A stretch of 64,000 nucleotides of DNA, taken from contig DASRBN010000013.1 in NCBI GenBank assembly GCA_035653615.1, positions 1 to 64,000 on the forward strand, written 5' to 3'. Position 1 is the first letter of the stretch; the number at the start of each line of letters is the position of its first letter. The notes beneath the pieces were generated by a model. The model did not search any database. It had not been told where the DNA came from and saw nothing but the letters and a program-made list of their open reading frames with translations. The DNA comes from Ktedonobacteraceae bacterium (GTDB taxonomy: Bacteria; Chloroflexota; Ktedonobacteria; Ktedonobacterales; Ktedonobacteraceae). The position numbers and the translations under genes were made by a program. Of the stretch, positions 25,064 to 31,056 are shown one piece after another.

Positions 25064-26230
25064 ATGGCAAGAATAGTCGTCGCAATGAGCGGCGGCGTGG
25101 ATAGTTCAGTAGCCGCCGCACTACTTAAGGAGCAGGGACACGAGGTCATCGGCATTATGCTTCGCCTCTGGTCCGAGCCGGGCGTCATAGAGGACGATGG
25201 CGTCGAACGAGTCGTGCAAAATAAATGCTGTTCGCTCGAGGCCGTCGATGATGCAAGACGCGTGGCGCGTAAGCTCGACATACCCTTTTACCTGGTCAAT
25301 GTAGAGCAGGAGTTCAAGGATAATGTGGTAGATTACTTCTACCAGGAATATGTTGCCGGGCGTACACCCAATCCTTGCCTGACGTGCAACCGCCATATTC
25401 GCTTCACGCTCCTGCTGAATCGCGCATTGGCGCTGGATGCCGACTACCTGGCGACAGGACACTACGTGCGCGTCGACGATCATCCCGTTACCGGCAAGCG
25501 CCGCCTGCGTCGCGCGATAGACCGTGACAAGGATCAGTCCTATGTCCTGCATGTTCTCAACCAGCAGCAGCTTGCGCATGCCTGCTTTCCACTAGGGCCA
25601 TATACGAAGCCGCAGGTGCGCGCTATGGCGGCAGAACGCGGCCTCTCAGTAGCAACCAAGGCCGAGAGCCAGGAAATCTGCTTCGTTGCTCAGAACGATT
25701 ACCGTGGCTTCATTGATCGCTACTCGGCAACCCTGCCTGAGGAACGCGAACCGGTAGGAATGCCCACCGGTACAATGGCGCGTGCCAACAGCGTTATTAC
25801 CATTCCCAGACCCGGCCCGATCTACGACCTGAGTGGAAAAACGCTGGGACGCCACCGCGGGCTGGCTTACTATACCATTGGACAGCGCAAGGGACTCGGA
25901 ATTACCTCATCGGAACCTTTGCACGTTATAAAGATTGACGCCGATCAGAACGCGCTGGTGGTCGGACCGGCAGAAGCCCTGCTGAAGGATAGCTGTACCG
26001 TTGGTAAGATGCACTATATCAGCGGTGAAACGCCAACCGGGCCATTTCAGGCATTCGTGCGCATACGCTACAAGGCGCCCGAACAAGAAGCGCTGGTCAC
26101 GCCCCTGGAGGGAAATCGTGCCCTGGTAACTTTTACACGCCCACAGCGTGCCATCACTCCTGGACAGGCAGCCGTTTTCTATGGCGGCGAGGATGGTGAT
26201 GAGGTGTTGTGCGGAGGATTGATTGAATGA
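25064..26230 (+). CDS. mnmA: tRNA-specific 2-thiouridylase MnmA
   Basis: A 388-residue enzyme that adds sulfur to U34 of tRNA-Glu, -Gln and -Lys. The PP-loop motif SGGVDSS is at 9-15; the catalytic pair is Cys105 (NPCLTCN) and Cys206 (SQEICFV), both intact; [15 protein letters not shown] precedes the C-terminal beta barrel. Length is normal. AGGGAG lies upstream of the ATG. Its stop overlaps the lepA start (ATGA), so they are coupled. The leader holds a terminator-like hairpin. The substrate tRNA-Glu(UUC) is encoded at 45232. Confidence 0.96.
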
Positions 26231-28032
26231 CGGATCAGGCTCATATTCGAAATTTTTGTATTATCGCTCATATAGATCATGGCAAATCAACGCTTGCCGA
26301 CCGCCTGCTGGAATTTACGGGAACCGTTTCCAAGCGCGAACTGACAGAGCAGATACTCGACCAGATGGACCTGGAACGAGAGAAAGGCATTACGATCAAA
26401 GCACAGGCCGTGCGCATGCTCTATAACGCGCTTAACGGGGAACAGTACGAGCTGAACTTGATCGACACTCCCGGGCATGTCGATTTCACCTATGAAGTTT
26501 CGCGCAGCCTGGCAGCTTGCGAGGGAGCGCTGCTGGTTGTCGACGCGACGCAGGGGATCGAGGCGCAGACGCTCGCGAATATGTATCTTGCGCTCGAAGC
26601 CGATCTGAATATCATTCCCATAATCAACAAGATCGACTTGCCCAGCGCCGAACCCGAACGAGTGATGCAAGAGATCGAGGATGTGATTGGCATACCTAAA
26701 GACGAATGTATTCTCGCCTCAGCGAAAGAGGGTACCGGCACGCAGGATATCCTGGAGGCCGTTATCCATCGCATTCCCCCTCCCAGAGGCAATGTACACC
26801 GGCCACTGCGCGCACTCGTCTTCGATTCCCACTACGACTCGTACAAGGGCGTCATTGCCTACGTGCGTATCGTCGATGGGGAGCTGCAGGAAGGGCAACG
26901 CATCGTCATGATGGCAACCGGCAGCAGCACAGAAATACTGGAAGCAGGTTACTTCCAGCCGCGTTTGATTTCAGCACATGCTCTGACAACAGGCGAAGTG
27001 GGCTACATTGCGACGGGCTTCAAGAATGTGAAGGATTGCCGCGTCGGCGATACGGTAACGGTGCCCCCGGCACTGGGCCAGGTCGAGGCGCTGCCAGGTT
27101 ACAAACCGGCCAAGCCAATGGTCTACGCGGGCATCTATCCAGTTGAGGGCAACGAATACCCTTTATTGCGTGATGCGCTGGATCGCCTCAAATTGAACGA
27201 CGCCTCGCTCTTCTACGAGCCGGAAACCTCCACTGCGCTGGGCTTCGGCTTCCGCTGCGGCTTCCTGGGGCTTCTCCACATGGAAATCATCCAGGAACGC
27301 ATCGAGCGGGAATACAACCTGGATATCCTGGCGACCGCCCCAAGCGTAGAGTACTACGTCACCAAAAGAAACGGCGAGGTCTTGAAAATAGACAATCCGT
27401 CCACGATGCCCGATCCAGGAGAAATTGAGAAAATCGAAGAACCATGGATGGATATTTCCATCTTTACACCTGCCCGCTATATCGGCACCATCATGGACCT
27501 GGTCACAACCAGGCGCGGCACCTTCAGTGAGATGAAATACATCGATACGGAGCGTGTTCTGCTGACCTATGGCATCCCACTTGCCGAACTGATCACCGAT
27601 TTCTACGATCAGCTCAAATCGCGCACGCAGGGCTACGCCTCACTGGATTACACCCTTGGCCGCTATCAGGAAGCCGACCTGGTGAAACTGGATATCCTGG
27701 TCAATTCGGTACCTGTGGACGCGCTCTCATTGATTATCCATCGCGATAAGGCTTACGCGCAGGGACGCCTGCTTGTGGAGAAACTGCGCCGGTTGATTCC
27801 CCGCCAGCTCTTCGAGGTGCCAATCCAGGCAGCTATCGGCTCGCATATCATAGCACGCGAAACGGTTAAAGCGATGCGCAAGGATGTGCTGGCGAAGTGT
27901 TATGGCGGCGACGTGACGCGCAAGCGCAAGCTGCTGGAGAAGCAGAAAGAGGGTAAAAAACGCCTCAAAATGGTAGGGAATGTGGAAATTCCGCAGGAGG
28001 CATTTATGGCGATTTTGTCATTGGAAGAATAG
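26227..28032 (+). CDS. lepA: Elongation factor 4 (LepA)
   Basis: A 601-residue ribosome-associated GTPase. G1 is AHIDHGKST (14-22), followed by [14 protein letters not shown] (G2), DTPGHVD (G3) and NKIDLP (G4). The EF-G-like domains II, III and V follow, and the LepA-specific C-terminal domain ends with [21 protein letters not shown]. Length matches the family. It overlaps mnmA by 4 bases and is followed by a strong terminator, which closes a two-gene translation operon. Confidence 0.97.
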
Positions 28033-28109: not shown

Positions 28110-28952
28110 TTATGGTTGCTGTGGAGGCTTTTGCTGTGGATACTGCGGGTTAGTCTGTGGCGGTTGCGGCGGCTGCGTTGGTTGCCACTGCTGTGGGTTG
28201 GGCTGTTGCTGCTGCGTCGGTTGCCACTGCTGCGGATTATATCCCTGATATGGCGGTGGTGGTGGCTGTTGCTGCTGCGTCGGTTGCCATTGCTGCGGGT
28301 CATAGGCTGGATATTGTAGCGGCGGCTGTTGCCCGGGCTGTCCTTGCTGCCACTGTTGTGGGTAAGCGACATAGTCGGGAGCGGGAGGCACATCCTGCTG
28401 GTAAGGTGGATATTGCGTCGACGGTGTCCACGTATGAGCAGATGATGGCAGCCCTATCTTCTCTTTAAATGCAATTCCCCCGCCCACGGCTACAGCCAGC
28501 ATTGATAGGAGAAAGAACCAGAAACCGGTGCTATAGTTAATATTAAGGCTTGAGTTGGAGCCGGAATTTAACGCATTTAATGTCTGACCATTAATGGTAA
28601 AATCACCGCCATTGAGCGCCACAATGAGCTGCGCAAGAAGGCCCAACGCGCCTATTCCTATCAACGAATAAATTCCGATGCGCACCTGCGTTTCAAGCGG
28701 AGTTCCAGAAAGACCAAACGGATTAGACCGAAAAATCAGCACAGCAGGAATGATGATCGCGGCCAGCGCCAGGATGAGTTCAACCCATATCAGTCCTCCA
28801 TCGCTGAACGCACTCAAAGCGAACGATACTCCTCCTGAACCTGGGTAAACAAGGGTAATATAGGGCATGAGGAGAAAAGCAGTTAAAGCTTCAATACCGC
28901 CAATAATAGCAATGAGATAGCCACGATTCTCCGGCAATGTCAGTTTTTCCAT
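28110..28952 (-). CDS. Four-helix membrane protein with Pro/Gln-rich repeat tail
   Basis: A 280-residue protein without a family I can name. Residues 1-165 hold about four hydrophobic helices (YLIAIIGGIEALTAFLLM; WVELILALAAIIIPAVLIF; IGIYSLIGIGALGLLAQLIVA; FWFFLLSMLAVAVGGGIAF; only cores shown). The last about 110 residues are Pro/Gln/Tyr-rich, with four copies of PQQWQPTQ. Such tails occur on bacterial membrane proteins that self-associate or meet the wall. AGAGGCTGG precedes the ATG. It is convergent with lepA. Confidence 0.72.
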   Translation of the reverse strand: MEKLTLPENRGYLIAIIGGIEALTAFLLMPYITLVYPGSGGVSFALSAFSDGGLIWVELILALAAIIIPAVLIFRSNPFGLSGTPLETQVRIGIYSLIGIGALGLLAQLIVALNGGDFTINGQTLNALNSGSNSSLNINYSTGFWFFLLSMLAVAVGGGIAFKEKIGLPSSAHTWTPSTQYPPYQQDVPPAPDYVAYPQQWQQGQPGQQPPLQYPAYDPQQWQPTQQQQPPPPPYQGYNPQQWQPTQQQQPNPQQWQPTQPPQPPQTNPQYPQQKPPQQP

Positions 28953-29206
28953 GTCGAACCAGCCTCTCTAAGAACAGTTTGTCGTCTTTGCTTGCTTCAG
29001 AAGCAAAGAGAGGGCCAACTCCGCGAATTTCCCAAATGATGTGATTTTTATCTTACTGGAAATTCCGAGCATCGTCAAGTATTTTTCAAGCGATCAAGGG
29101 AAAAATGTAACATTGCACAAGGATATGTAATGAGCGGAGGAAACAACGCCGGAACATAGTGAAAGAGGCATAGAGGAAGCGAAGAGATAGGACCAGTAAT
29201 GCAGAA
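28953..29206. other. Gap upstream of the Pro/Gln-rich protein
   Basis: Non-coding as far as I can see. It must contain the promoter of the minus-strand gene. The later part is purine-rich and ends in the hairpin at 29207. Confidence 0.4.
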
Positions 29207-29250
29207 AGGATCAGGCAATCATGCTACCTGATCCTTCTGTGTTTCTTTTT
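29207..29250. terminator. Terminator hairpin
   Basis: AGGATCAGG (29207-29215) pairs with CCTGATCCT (29227-29235), followed on the plus strand by TCTGTGTTTCTTTTT. No plus-strand gene lies before it. On the minus strand it sits at the far end of the RNA locus from 29.62 kb, with a shorter TTTC tail, and may end that transcript. Confidence 0.6.
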
Positions 29251-29620
29251 CTGCACAACTCCCGTGTTCACGTTCAACCGAGTTCTATTACAGAAAGAGG
29301 GGCCTGGAAGTAAATAGCCCCTGTCATTCCTCTGCGTACCACCACCAACCTGCGACGAAAGCCATCGTAAAGACTTGACAGGATCCCCAATTGGGACGAT
29401 ATCAATGTGATATCTGTTCAAGTATGCCAGGTTAAGGCCGGTGGCTCAGAGGCCCGGTATGCCCGCCTTCACGGGCTCTACTAGTCGATCTGAAAGACCA
29501 TCCCTAAGAGGCGTATTGGTTTCTTCATTGGCATAGTAGTTCTCCTTTCGGAATTACCAATGTAAGGCCGTTCGCCTTATGCCAGGGTCTTTGTGTTCCC
29601 TGGATATCCCTTTCGGAATA
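29224..29620 (-). ncRNA. Candidate structured RNA / leader transcript with small ORF
   Basis: A strong promoter (29626-29654) starts a minus-strand transcript that is not explained by any long gene. In order it contains hairpins CCAGGG/CCCTGG (29582-29603) and TAAGGC/GCCTTA (29563-29579), a 17-codon ORF with a good ribosome-binding site (29481-29534), a GCCCG/CGGGC hairpin just after the ORF, and AGGGGC/GGCCCCT (29298-29322) followed by CTTTCT. A 65-codon frame (29224-29421) could be read only from a TTG without a clear site. It may be a regulatory RNA, a dual-function RNA, or a remnant of a mobile element. Confidence 0.5.
29481..29534 (-). CDS. Predicted 17-residue peptide in a strongly promoted transcript
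   Basis: ATG at 29534 with AAAGGAG eight bases upstream encodes MPMKKPIRLLGMVFQID. It is basic at the front and hydrophobic behind. The ribosome-binding site and the consensus-like promoter 90 bases upstream are as good as those of housekeeping genes here, which is the only support. It could be a leader peptide whose translation controls the downstream structure, or a short membrane-active peptide. Confidence 0.4.
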   Translation of the reverse strand: MPMKKPIRLLGMVFQID

Positions 29621-29625
29621 TAAAG

Positions 29626-29654
29626 AGTATACCATGATGTTTCACAAAAGTCAA
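29626..29654 (-). promoter_or_regulatory. Strong sigma-70-type promoter
   Basis: On the minus strand TTGACT (29649-29654), a 17-base spacer, TATACT (29626-29631): five of six matches in each box. Transcription should start near 29619 and run toward lower coordinates, away from the DUF1003 gene. Confidence 0.8.
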
Positions 29655-30279: not shown

Positions 30280-30465
30280 TGCATTTTTACCATCTTTTTC
30301 CAGGCGCCTGCTAGCCCATATTTTTTAAATACACGGATGGGATGTAGAGAGGGCTTCAGCGAACGAAGTCTATATGCGAGGCTACTTTTCCGCCAAACAA
30401 TAAATAAAGGCACAGTCATTACTTACTGTACCTCATGAAAATTCACAATCAAGATCGGCCCTGTC
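30280..30465. other. Gap upstream of DUF1003
   Basis: No gene seen; the DUF1003 promoter should be here. Confidence 0.4.
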
Positions 30466-30690
30466 ATTCTTCGCTGCGCTCAGCCTCTCGTATGCCCCAA
30501 GAGGATTCTTCGCTGCACTCAGAATGACATGCCGTGAGCCACTTAGTACAATGAGCCTCTCGTATGCCCCAGGGAGATTCTTCGCTGCGCTCAGCATGAC
30601 CTGATGTGAGCCACTTAGTACGATTGGGCCTCTCGTATGCCGAACAGGGAGATTCTTCGCTGCGCTCAGCATGACAGGTCACTCAGAATG
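30466..30690. repeat. Tandem array of palindrome-family half-elements, units of about 72-73 bp
   Basis: CCTCTCGTATGCC recurs at 30484, 30556 and 30629, so the unit is 72-73 bp. Each unit holds GATTCTTCGCTGCRCTCAGMATGAC and, in the first two, GAGCCACTTAGTAC. A partial core precedes the first unit and a reversed CACTCAGAATGACAGG follows the last. Here the core is in direct rather than inverted orientation, unlike the other loci. Confidence 0.85.
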
Positions 30691-30744: not shown

Positions 30745-31056
30745 TTATGCGCCTCTTTCGGGCGGCATCACCGGATTCTCGGGCTTTCCAATCCCCTCCG
30801 GTGGCATCACCGGGTTTTCCGGCTTTCCTACTCCTTCCGGCGGCATTACCGGATTCACCGGTTTCTCTATCCCCTCGGGCGGCATCACCGGATTCTCGGG
30901 CTTTCCCATTCCCTCGGGTGGCATTACTGGATTCACCGGTTTCCCTATCTCCTCCGGTGGCATTACCGGATTGGCAACTTTCCCCTCACCATCAATGGAA
31001 GCAGGAACAGCATCCGATGTGACAATGACAATAGTTTCTTCTTCAAATTCTTCCAT
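30745..31056 (-). CDS. Small protein with six NPVMPPE tandem repeats
   Basis: A 103-residue protein from the ATG at 31056, which has an excellent AAGGAGG site; an upstream in-frame ATG has none. The first about 28 residues (MEEFEEETIVIVTSDA...) are acidic. The rest is six copies of a 13-residue unit, NPVMPPEGIGKPE with small changes. No signal peptide or membrane helix. The leader-plus-repeats layout resembles multi-core peptide precursors, but no modifying enzyme is near. The next gene carries the same motif at its C-terminus. Family not recognised. Confidence 0.75.
   Translation of the reverse strand: MEEFEEETIVIVTSDAVPASIDGEGKVANPVMPPEEIGKPVNPVMPPEGMGKPENPVMPPEGIEKPVNPVMPPEGVGKPENPVMPPEGIGKPENPVMPPERGA

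Follow-up and report, generated by a model that had tools for sequence, protein, structure and literature searches.

The minus strand from 29620 to 29200 of the window (the whole stretch of DNA analysed, 64,000 nucleotides) carries a free-standing RNA gene, consisting of a promoter, hairpins, a strong ribosome-binding site, an ORF, a hairpin just after the ORF, a long-range domain and a terminator. Comparison with its relatives points to an RNA that combines the features of a tiny mRNA with those of a structured RNA, present class-wide and vertically inherited. In the genomes checked it is a near-universal RNA gene of an entire bacterial class, with a peptide below gene-finder size and a fold that is not in Rfam. 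We tentatively favour the reading, built on sequence comparison and on analogy with known systems, that it is a stand-alone peptide-plus-hairpin RNA on which the ribosome would pause, with translation gated by the hairpin designated P3b and with the effect exerted through the RNA itself.

Position and extent of the RNA gene

The elements of the gene, all on the minus strand and in the order in which they are read, are as follows.

29626..29654, minus strand: promoter TTGACT-17-TATACT with a TG extended -10; the same promoter type lies upstream of relatives' copies
29200..29620, minus strand: whole RNA gene, predicted transcript of about 420 nt; BLAST and covariance-model conservation, fold z
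29605..29620, minus strand: hairpin P1 (TATTCC-GAAA-GGGATA); helix 1
29582..29603, minus strand: hairpin P2 (CCAGGG...CCCTGG); helix 2, 100% paired, one pair changed from G-C to A-U in 7/22
29563..29579, minus strand: hairpin P3 (TAAGGC...GCCTTA); compensatory change in 5/6 pairs
29526..29562, minus strand: hairpin P3b, CATTGGTA with TATGCCAATG; fold centroid and own- versus cross-sequence pairing
29542..29548, minus strand: ribosome-binding site AAAGGAG; AAGGAG nearly invariant in alignment A2
29481..29534, minus strand: 17-codon ORF MPMKKPIRLLGMVFQID, stop TAG; peptide conserved class-wide, pS 0.68 versus pN 0.16
29477..29486, minus strand: Asp codon GAC and spacer TAGTAGA of invariant length (7 nt); spacing 7 nt in 53/53
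29461..29476, minus strand: hairpin P4 (GCCCG-TGAAGG-CGGGC), the proposed ribosome-pausing hairpin; 100% of cells paired, in all 53 copies
29447..29452, minus strand: 5' arm CCTCTG of the long-range helix P5; helix 5, compensatory change at six of six pairs, 96% paired
29353..29367, minus strand: hairpin P6 (CGATG-GCTTT-CGTCG); helix 7
29329..29334, minus strand: 3' arm CAGAGG of P5; helix 5
29298..29322, minus strand: AGGGG...CCCCT hairpin; some relatives have a hairpin of different sequence at the same place
29254..29266, minus strand: hairpin P8, CAC-GGGAGTT-GTG, with conserved loop (G/A)GGAGTT; helix 8
29203..29238, minus strand: intrinsic terminator hairpin; helix 9, compensatory change at all eight pairs

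An earlier note on this DNA had described a strong promoter, then a pair of short hairpins, a 17-codon ORF preceded by AAAGGAG, and just past the ORF a hairpin rich in GC. All of these elements were found in place; of the nine promoters in 28-31 kb this one is among the best, and nearly all main copies of family f1 are preceded by the same promoter type. The extent of the element needs correction, since the hairpin at 29322-29298, which had been taken as final, is not the end of the RNA; the terminator is the hairpin at 29238-29203, which covaries across relatives, and the RNA, previously placed within 29224-29654, should extend to about 29200. The 65-codon frame in this region is not conserved, matches no Pfam family and overlaps RNA helices. 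The observation behind the earlier note is thus confirmed, and its object is more than a relic. The A-rich tract and hairpin at 29250-29203 of the window, and their equivalents before lepA, look like a bidirectional terminator serving lepA and the RNA in relatives, where the A-rich tract ahead of the terminator hairpin would be a U-tract for lepA on the opposite strand.

Distribution, neighbourhood and inheritance

A BLAST search with the locus gave matches in 27 of 41 relatives. A covariance-model search of related Ktedonobacteria, a check proposed in the earlier note, was made with a model of 142 positions and placed the RNA in 44 of the 47 genomes of the class, including all 14 that reach 90% completeness with no more than 5% contamination. 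The same search of 221 genomes from other Chloroflexota returned two matches (E 0.006-0.008), which is chance level for that number of genomes. A degenerate DNA pattern for the peptide matched 29 times in 84,980 species genomes, always in Ktedonobacteria-type records (Ktedonobacter, Ktedonobacterales, Ktedonobacteria, Ktedonobacteraceae, Thermogemmatispora, Thermosporothrix, Dictyobacter, Tengunoibacter, Ktedonospora, Ktedonosporobacter and Chloroflexi MAGs), and the viral contigs and plasmids searched held no match to the RNA. Judged by these sequence searches, the RNA with its peptide and folds is near-universal in the Ktedonobacteria genomes checked and is found convincingly nowhere else.

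The RNA stands tail-to-tail with lepA (elongation factor 4) in 35 loci, which come from three of the four families; mnmA is also present beside lepA in those loci wherever the contig is long enough. In the window the genes concerned are the following.

25064-26230: mnmA
26227-28032: lepA
28110-28952, minus strand: extra gene separating lepA from the RNA

Upstream of the RNA, the neighbouring gene differs among genera (DUF1003 in the window), and the RNA is therefore not an untranslated region belonging to a conserved operon. No gene is conserved downstream on the strand of the RNA, and the genes found there differ between genera; a homocysteine methyltransferase-like gene was noted in this position at five loci (L142, L099, L144, L109 and L112) from Thermosporothrix and from a Ktedonobacter-group genus, g8. 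An ordinary cis leader or attenuator controlling a downstream gene would share the layout of peptide, hairpin and terminator. We nevertheless regard this reading as very improbable, because the next conserved gene is the convergent lepA in the 35 loci, a neighbour that argues against a cis leader, because the same-strand genes vary and because terminators follow the RNA: where an arrest leader would have a regulated gene on the same transcript, we find a terminator and then lepA.

The usual tail-to-tail position beside lepA and mnmA also indicates that the RNA is inherited vertically and is not mobile. The earlier note had offered an omega-RNA-like relic of a mobile element as one possibility, and a transposon end would be a similar case; nothing speaks for such an origin beyond the fact that the RNA is structured. 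Against it stand the near-universal presence in the class, the lepA synteny at a single locus, the usually single copy and the lack of plasmid or viral matches, and a transposon-associated RNA of the omega-RNA kind was rejected for want of a mobile distribution and of a transposase link. Synteny and selection together refute the mobile-relic reading, to which we attach practically no weight. Two sets of repeats were noted nearby in the window, namely four copies of an interspersed repeat with ATTCTTCGCTGCGCTCAG (30459-30675) and five copies of a repeat with a 39-bp period (30758-31011) that encodes the peptide repeat NPVMPPEG(I/V)(G/E)KP(E/V).

RNA structure

The 420-nt single strand folds at -151.5 kcal/mol, with a z score of -4.69 against shuffles. 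On alignment A2, which contains 22 sequences, a nine-helix structure of 54 pairs shows 91.5% standard pairs, and compensatory changes occur in 32 of the 54 pairs, compared with 16.3 +/- 2.5 in shuffles and 3-14 in slid versions of the structure. The earlier note had suggested looking for covariation in the hairpins, and this excess shows that the RNA folds are under selection. The two arms of P5 are separated by 112 nt. Two further pairings were discarded: a helix proposed by RNAalifold between the 5' arm of P1 and GGGATG of the ORF, as G-U-rich chance, and a GGATTA-TAATCC pseudoknot that would join the 3' region to the SD region, judged by eye and missing in several genera.

The earlier note had missed P3b (29562-29526), which holds the start codon within its stem and the ribosome-binding site in its loop. 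Depending on the genus, its arms read in the alignment as CATTGGT-ACCAATG or as CATAAG-CTTATG. Duplexes formed between a copy's own two arms are stronger than cross-sequence ones (mean -9.8 versus -8.8 kcal/mol, P 0.008; versus shuffled, P 1e-6), and this comparison of duplex strength gives P3b moderate support.

The 3' domain bears on two alternatives. A classical dual-function sRNA in the style of RNAIII or SgrS, in which this domain would base-pair with target mRNAs and the peptide would act in the same pathway, accords with the independent transcription unit, with the conservation of both ORF and RNA structure and with a conserved unpaired stretch ahead of P8. Hfq, though, was not found in the genome, the main copies of Thermogemmatispora lack the P8 region and short paralogs have no 3' domain, and we consider this alternative improbable on the sequences compared. 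The second is that the RGGAG loop of P8, along with the ribosome-binding site, would titrate CsrA. P8 resembles a CsrA hairpin of the SELEX consensus type, and CsrA is present in 41 of 47 genomes of the class, that of the source included. Such a sponge is scarcely probable, given that the RNA contains few GGA loops and that all three genomes of genus g4 (76-87% complete) lack a CsrA match while retaining the RNA with an unchanged P8 loop (L005-L007). CsrA is otherwise widespread and multi-copy in Ktedonobacteria; the genome that carries the Ktedonobacter racemifer locus has eight matches.

The peptide and the selection on it

A peptide-anchored search collected the peptides of 53 copies, with the consensus M..MKKPIRLLGMVFQID; the core P-(I/V)-(R/H)-x-x-G-(M/V)-V-(F/Y/I)-Q-(I/V)-D is retained among them with few exceptions at each position. 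The 45 distinct cores have nucleotide diversities of 0.25, 0.09 and 0.51 at the first, second and third codon positions, respectively, and the mean pS is 0.68 against a mean pN of 0.16. Change in the ORF is thus dominated by synonymous substitution, the pattern that the earlier note had proposed to look for, and the sequences show selection on the peptide at the protein level. The length variation at the N-terminus, of 3 and 18 nt, amounts to whole codons and keeps the frame. As in ribosome-arrest leaders, amino-acid conservation of the short ORF runs up to the presumed stall codon. Searches of Pfam and PDB with the peptide found no relative.

Spacing and codons where the ORF ends

P4 begins 7 nt past the last conserved codon in 53 of 53 copies; this codon specifies Asp, except in three array units, where it specifies Thr. 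The spacer has 30 different sequences among these copies, yet its length is constant, and its positions 2 and 3 are purines in every one. The codon that follows Asp is a stop in 31 copies, Arg in 12, Gln in six and Lys in four, with no others; a divergent paralog outside the 53 (L136) has Glu after the Asp position. On the lepA tree, in which one row (L115) is a long-branched GTPase that was misassigned, there are at least six switches between stop and sense at this codon. TAG accounts for 24 of the 31 stops, compared with 81 of 236 (34%) in neighbouring conserved genes. Selection on each element, the fixed spacing and the restricted next codon can thus be read directly from the alignments.

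With Asp in the P site, the stem of P4 would start at +11. Stem-loops are reported to block A-site binding only at 11-12 nt, a distance at which the purines of A-site positions 2-3 and of the linker have been modelled as a continuous stack, and the hairpin of T4 gene 60 excludes RF1 at a take-off site that has a stop codon (PMC7282821). In ErmBL, arrest occurs at Asp10 and is supported by Lys, Arg, Gln, His or Trp in the A site and abolished by Ala (PMC4935803). An ErmBL-type preference for the next codon and a hairpin at +11 are two independent known ways of stopping a ribosome, and both therefore indicate the same Asp codon. From this geometry and these analogies, we infer that the ribosome may pause there.

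The arrangement of codon, UAG, hairpin and nascent peptide also resembles that of T4 gene 60 (PMC7282821), and programmed bypassing would have the ribosome take off at the codon before UAG and land downstream. We think this only remotely probable, as the 3' region has no conserved frame, varies freely in length and is folded.

Several points weigh against pausing. Both the constant spacing and the restricted next codon could stem in part from shared descent and from a constraint for purine-rich RNA. What the peptide shares with ErmBL is confined to (I/V)-D-(K/R/Q) and to VFQ in a different register, and Arg7, which is critical in ErmBL, has no counterpart. Most genomes have no controlled gene downstream, unlike every classical arrest leader. 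In some copies, moreover, the frame stays open past Asp into P4, in one of them without a stop until 39 aa.

Paralogs and the small-protein alternative

Short forms from Ktedonosporobacter and Thermogemmatispora have a terminator soon after P4; these paralogs retain just the 5' hairpins, the ORF, P4 and the terminator and have no 3' domain. A second locus in the source genome (contig C32) contains two tandem ORF and P4 units, and arrays repeat this unit two or three times. Since short forms and arrays alike keep the ORF and P4, these constitute a separable functional core, and the P5-P8 domain belongs to the main copy. At the second locus (L115, minus strand, about 6890-6600) the second unit lacks the first start codon and ends in V-T, not I-D. 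A Thermosporothrix array (L117, contig C34, about 296-680) has three tandem ORF and hairpin units in one transcript, and its first unit has ATC at the expected start in place of ATG, GTG or TTG.

The main rival explanation is a plain small-protein gene, of which the released 17-residue peptide would be the product, as an intracellular regulator that binds a partner or as a signal, while the hairpins would merely tune translation and stability of the mRNA. The strong selection at the amino-acid level fits this explanation, as do minimal paralogs that retain the ORF and hairpins and arrays that would raise the peptide dose. It leaves unexplained the fixed distance from Asp to P4, the limitation of the next codon to stop, Arg, Lys or Gln and the covarying 3' domain of the main copy, and a chain of 18 residues could fit entirely inside the exit tunnel. 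We judge it unlikely, while taking it seriously.

Proposed mechanism

We return to a pausing RNA. The earlier note had also listed a dual-function RNA and a leader without a downstream gene, and this direction was right, in that the synonymous-dominated change in the peptide, the RNA covariation and the lack of a conserved downstream gene on the same strand all support it; its mobile-relic option was not. Our working model is that P3b would gate translation initiation and that the ribosome would then pause once Asp occupies the P site. Two obstacles would hinder binding of a release factor or of Arg-, Lys- or Gln-tRNA in the A site: the exit tunnel would hold the nascent ...GMVFQ(I/V)D, and P4 would stand at the mRNA entry (+11). 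As no gene lies downstream, such a pause would have its effect by way of the RNA, setting its stability or the folding of its 3' domain and hence an action in trans. The RNA might accordingly stand alone as a sensor, responding to translation state or to a small molecule that binds the ribosome; pausing, sensing and trans action are the inferred parts of the model. The full version, in which peptide and fixed-position hairpin jointly pause the ribosome at one Asp and the signal is carried throughout the class by the transcript's own 3' domain, in its paused or released state, and not by a downstream gene, is possible, if more doubtful than the general reading. If ribosomes do pause here, the peptide would be of the arrest type yet lack a target in cis; precise points at which pausing could be probed are the Asp codon, P4 and the 3' domain.

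Comparison with known systems

In agreement with the earlier note, which had recognised no known RNA family, Rfam 15 at the gathering score identified only tRNAs in the window, and the best sub-threshold matches at E up to 5 were chance snoRNA-like ones (E 0.16 or worse). tmRNA was dismissed because Rfam gave no tmRNA match at the locus and a genuine tmRNA lies on contig C30 of the same genome, and 6S RNA because the genome has no Rfam 6S match. A limited search of the literature on small or non-coding RNAs and ribosome stalling in Ktedonobacter, and on structured RNAs of Chloroflexi that contain short ORFs, turned up no account of the RNA, which is likely to be new to the literature.

The RNA nevertheless recalls several known systems. 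It shares with tmRNA a length of about 400 nt and a short internal ORF between helices, but its ORF begins at an SD and ATG. Like RNAIII, SgrS and VcdRP, it is an independent structured transcript with a conserved small ORF; it differs from them in that the peptide has 17 aa and the ORF lies within the fold, with start and stop tied to hairpins, and it has no sequence relation to them and occurs in a genome without Hfq. In common with the T4 gene 60 take-off site and the pausing stem-loops of dnaX and HIV, it has a hairpin at the ribosome edge just past the P-site codon, and with this group it shares UAG as next codon, a purine linker and a nascent peptide, whereas no frameshift slip sequence was noticed and no coding sequence follows. 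ErmBL and other macrolide-arrest leader peptides are similar in their short ORF, arrest-type C-terminus of (V/I)-Asp followed by Lys, Arg or Gln, strong SD and surrounding hairpins. Unlike those leaders, the present RNA has an otherwise different peptide and no resistance or other gene in cis downstream, and it combines a hairpin at a fixed +11 with class-wide, vertical inheritance.
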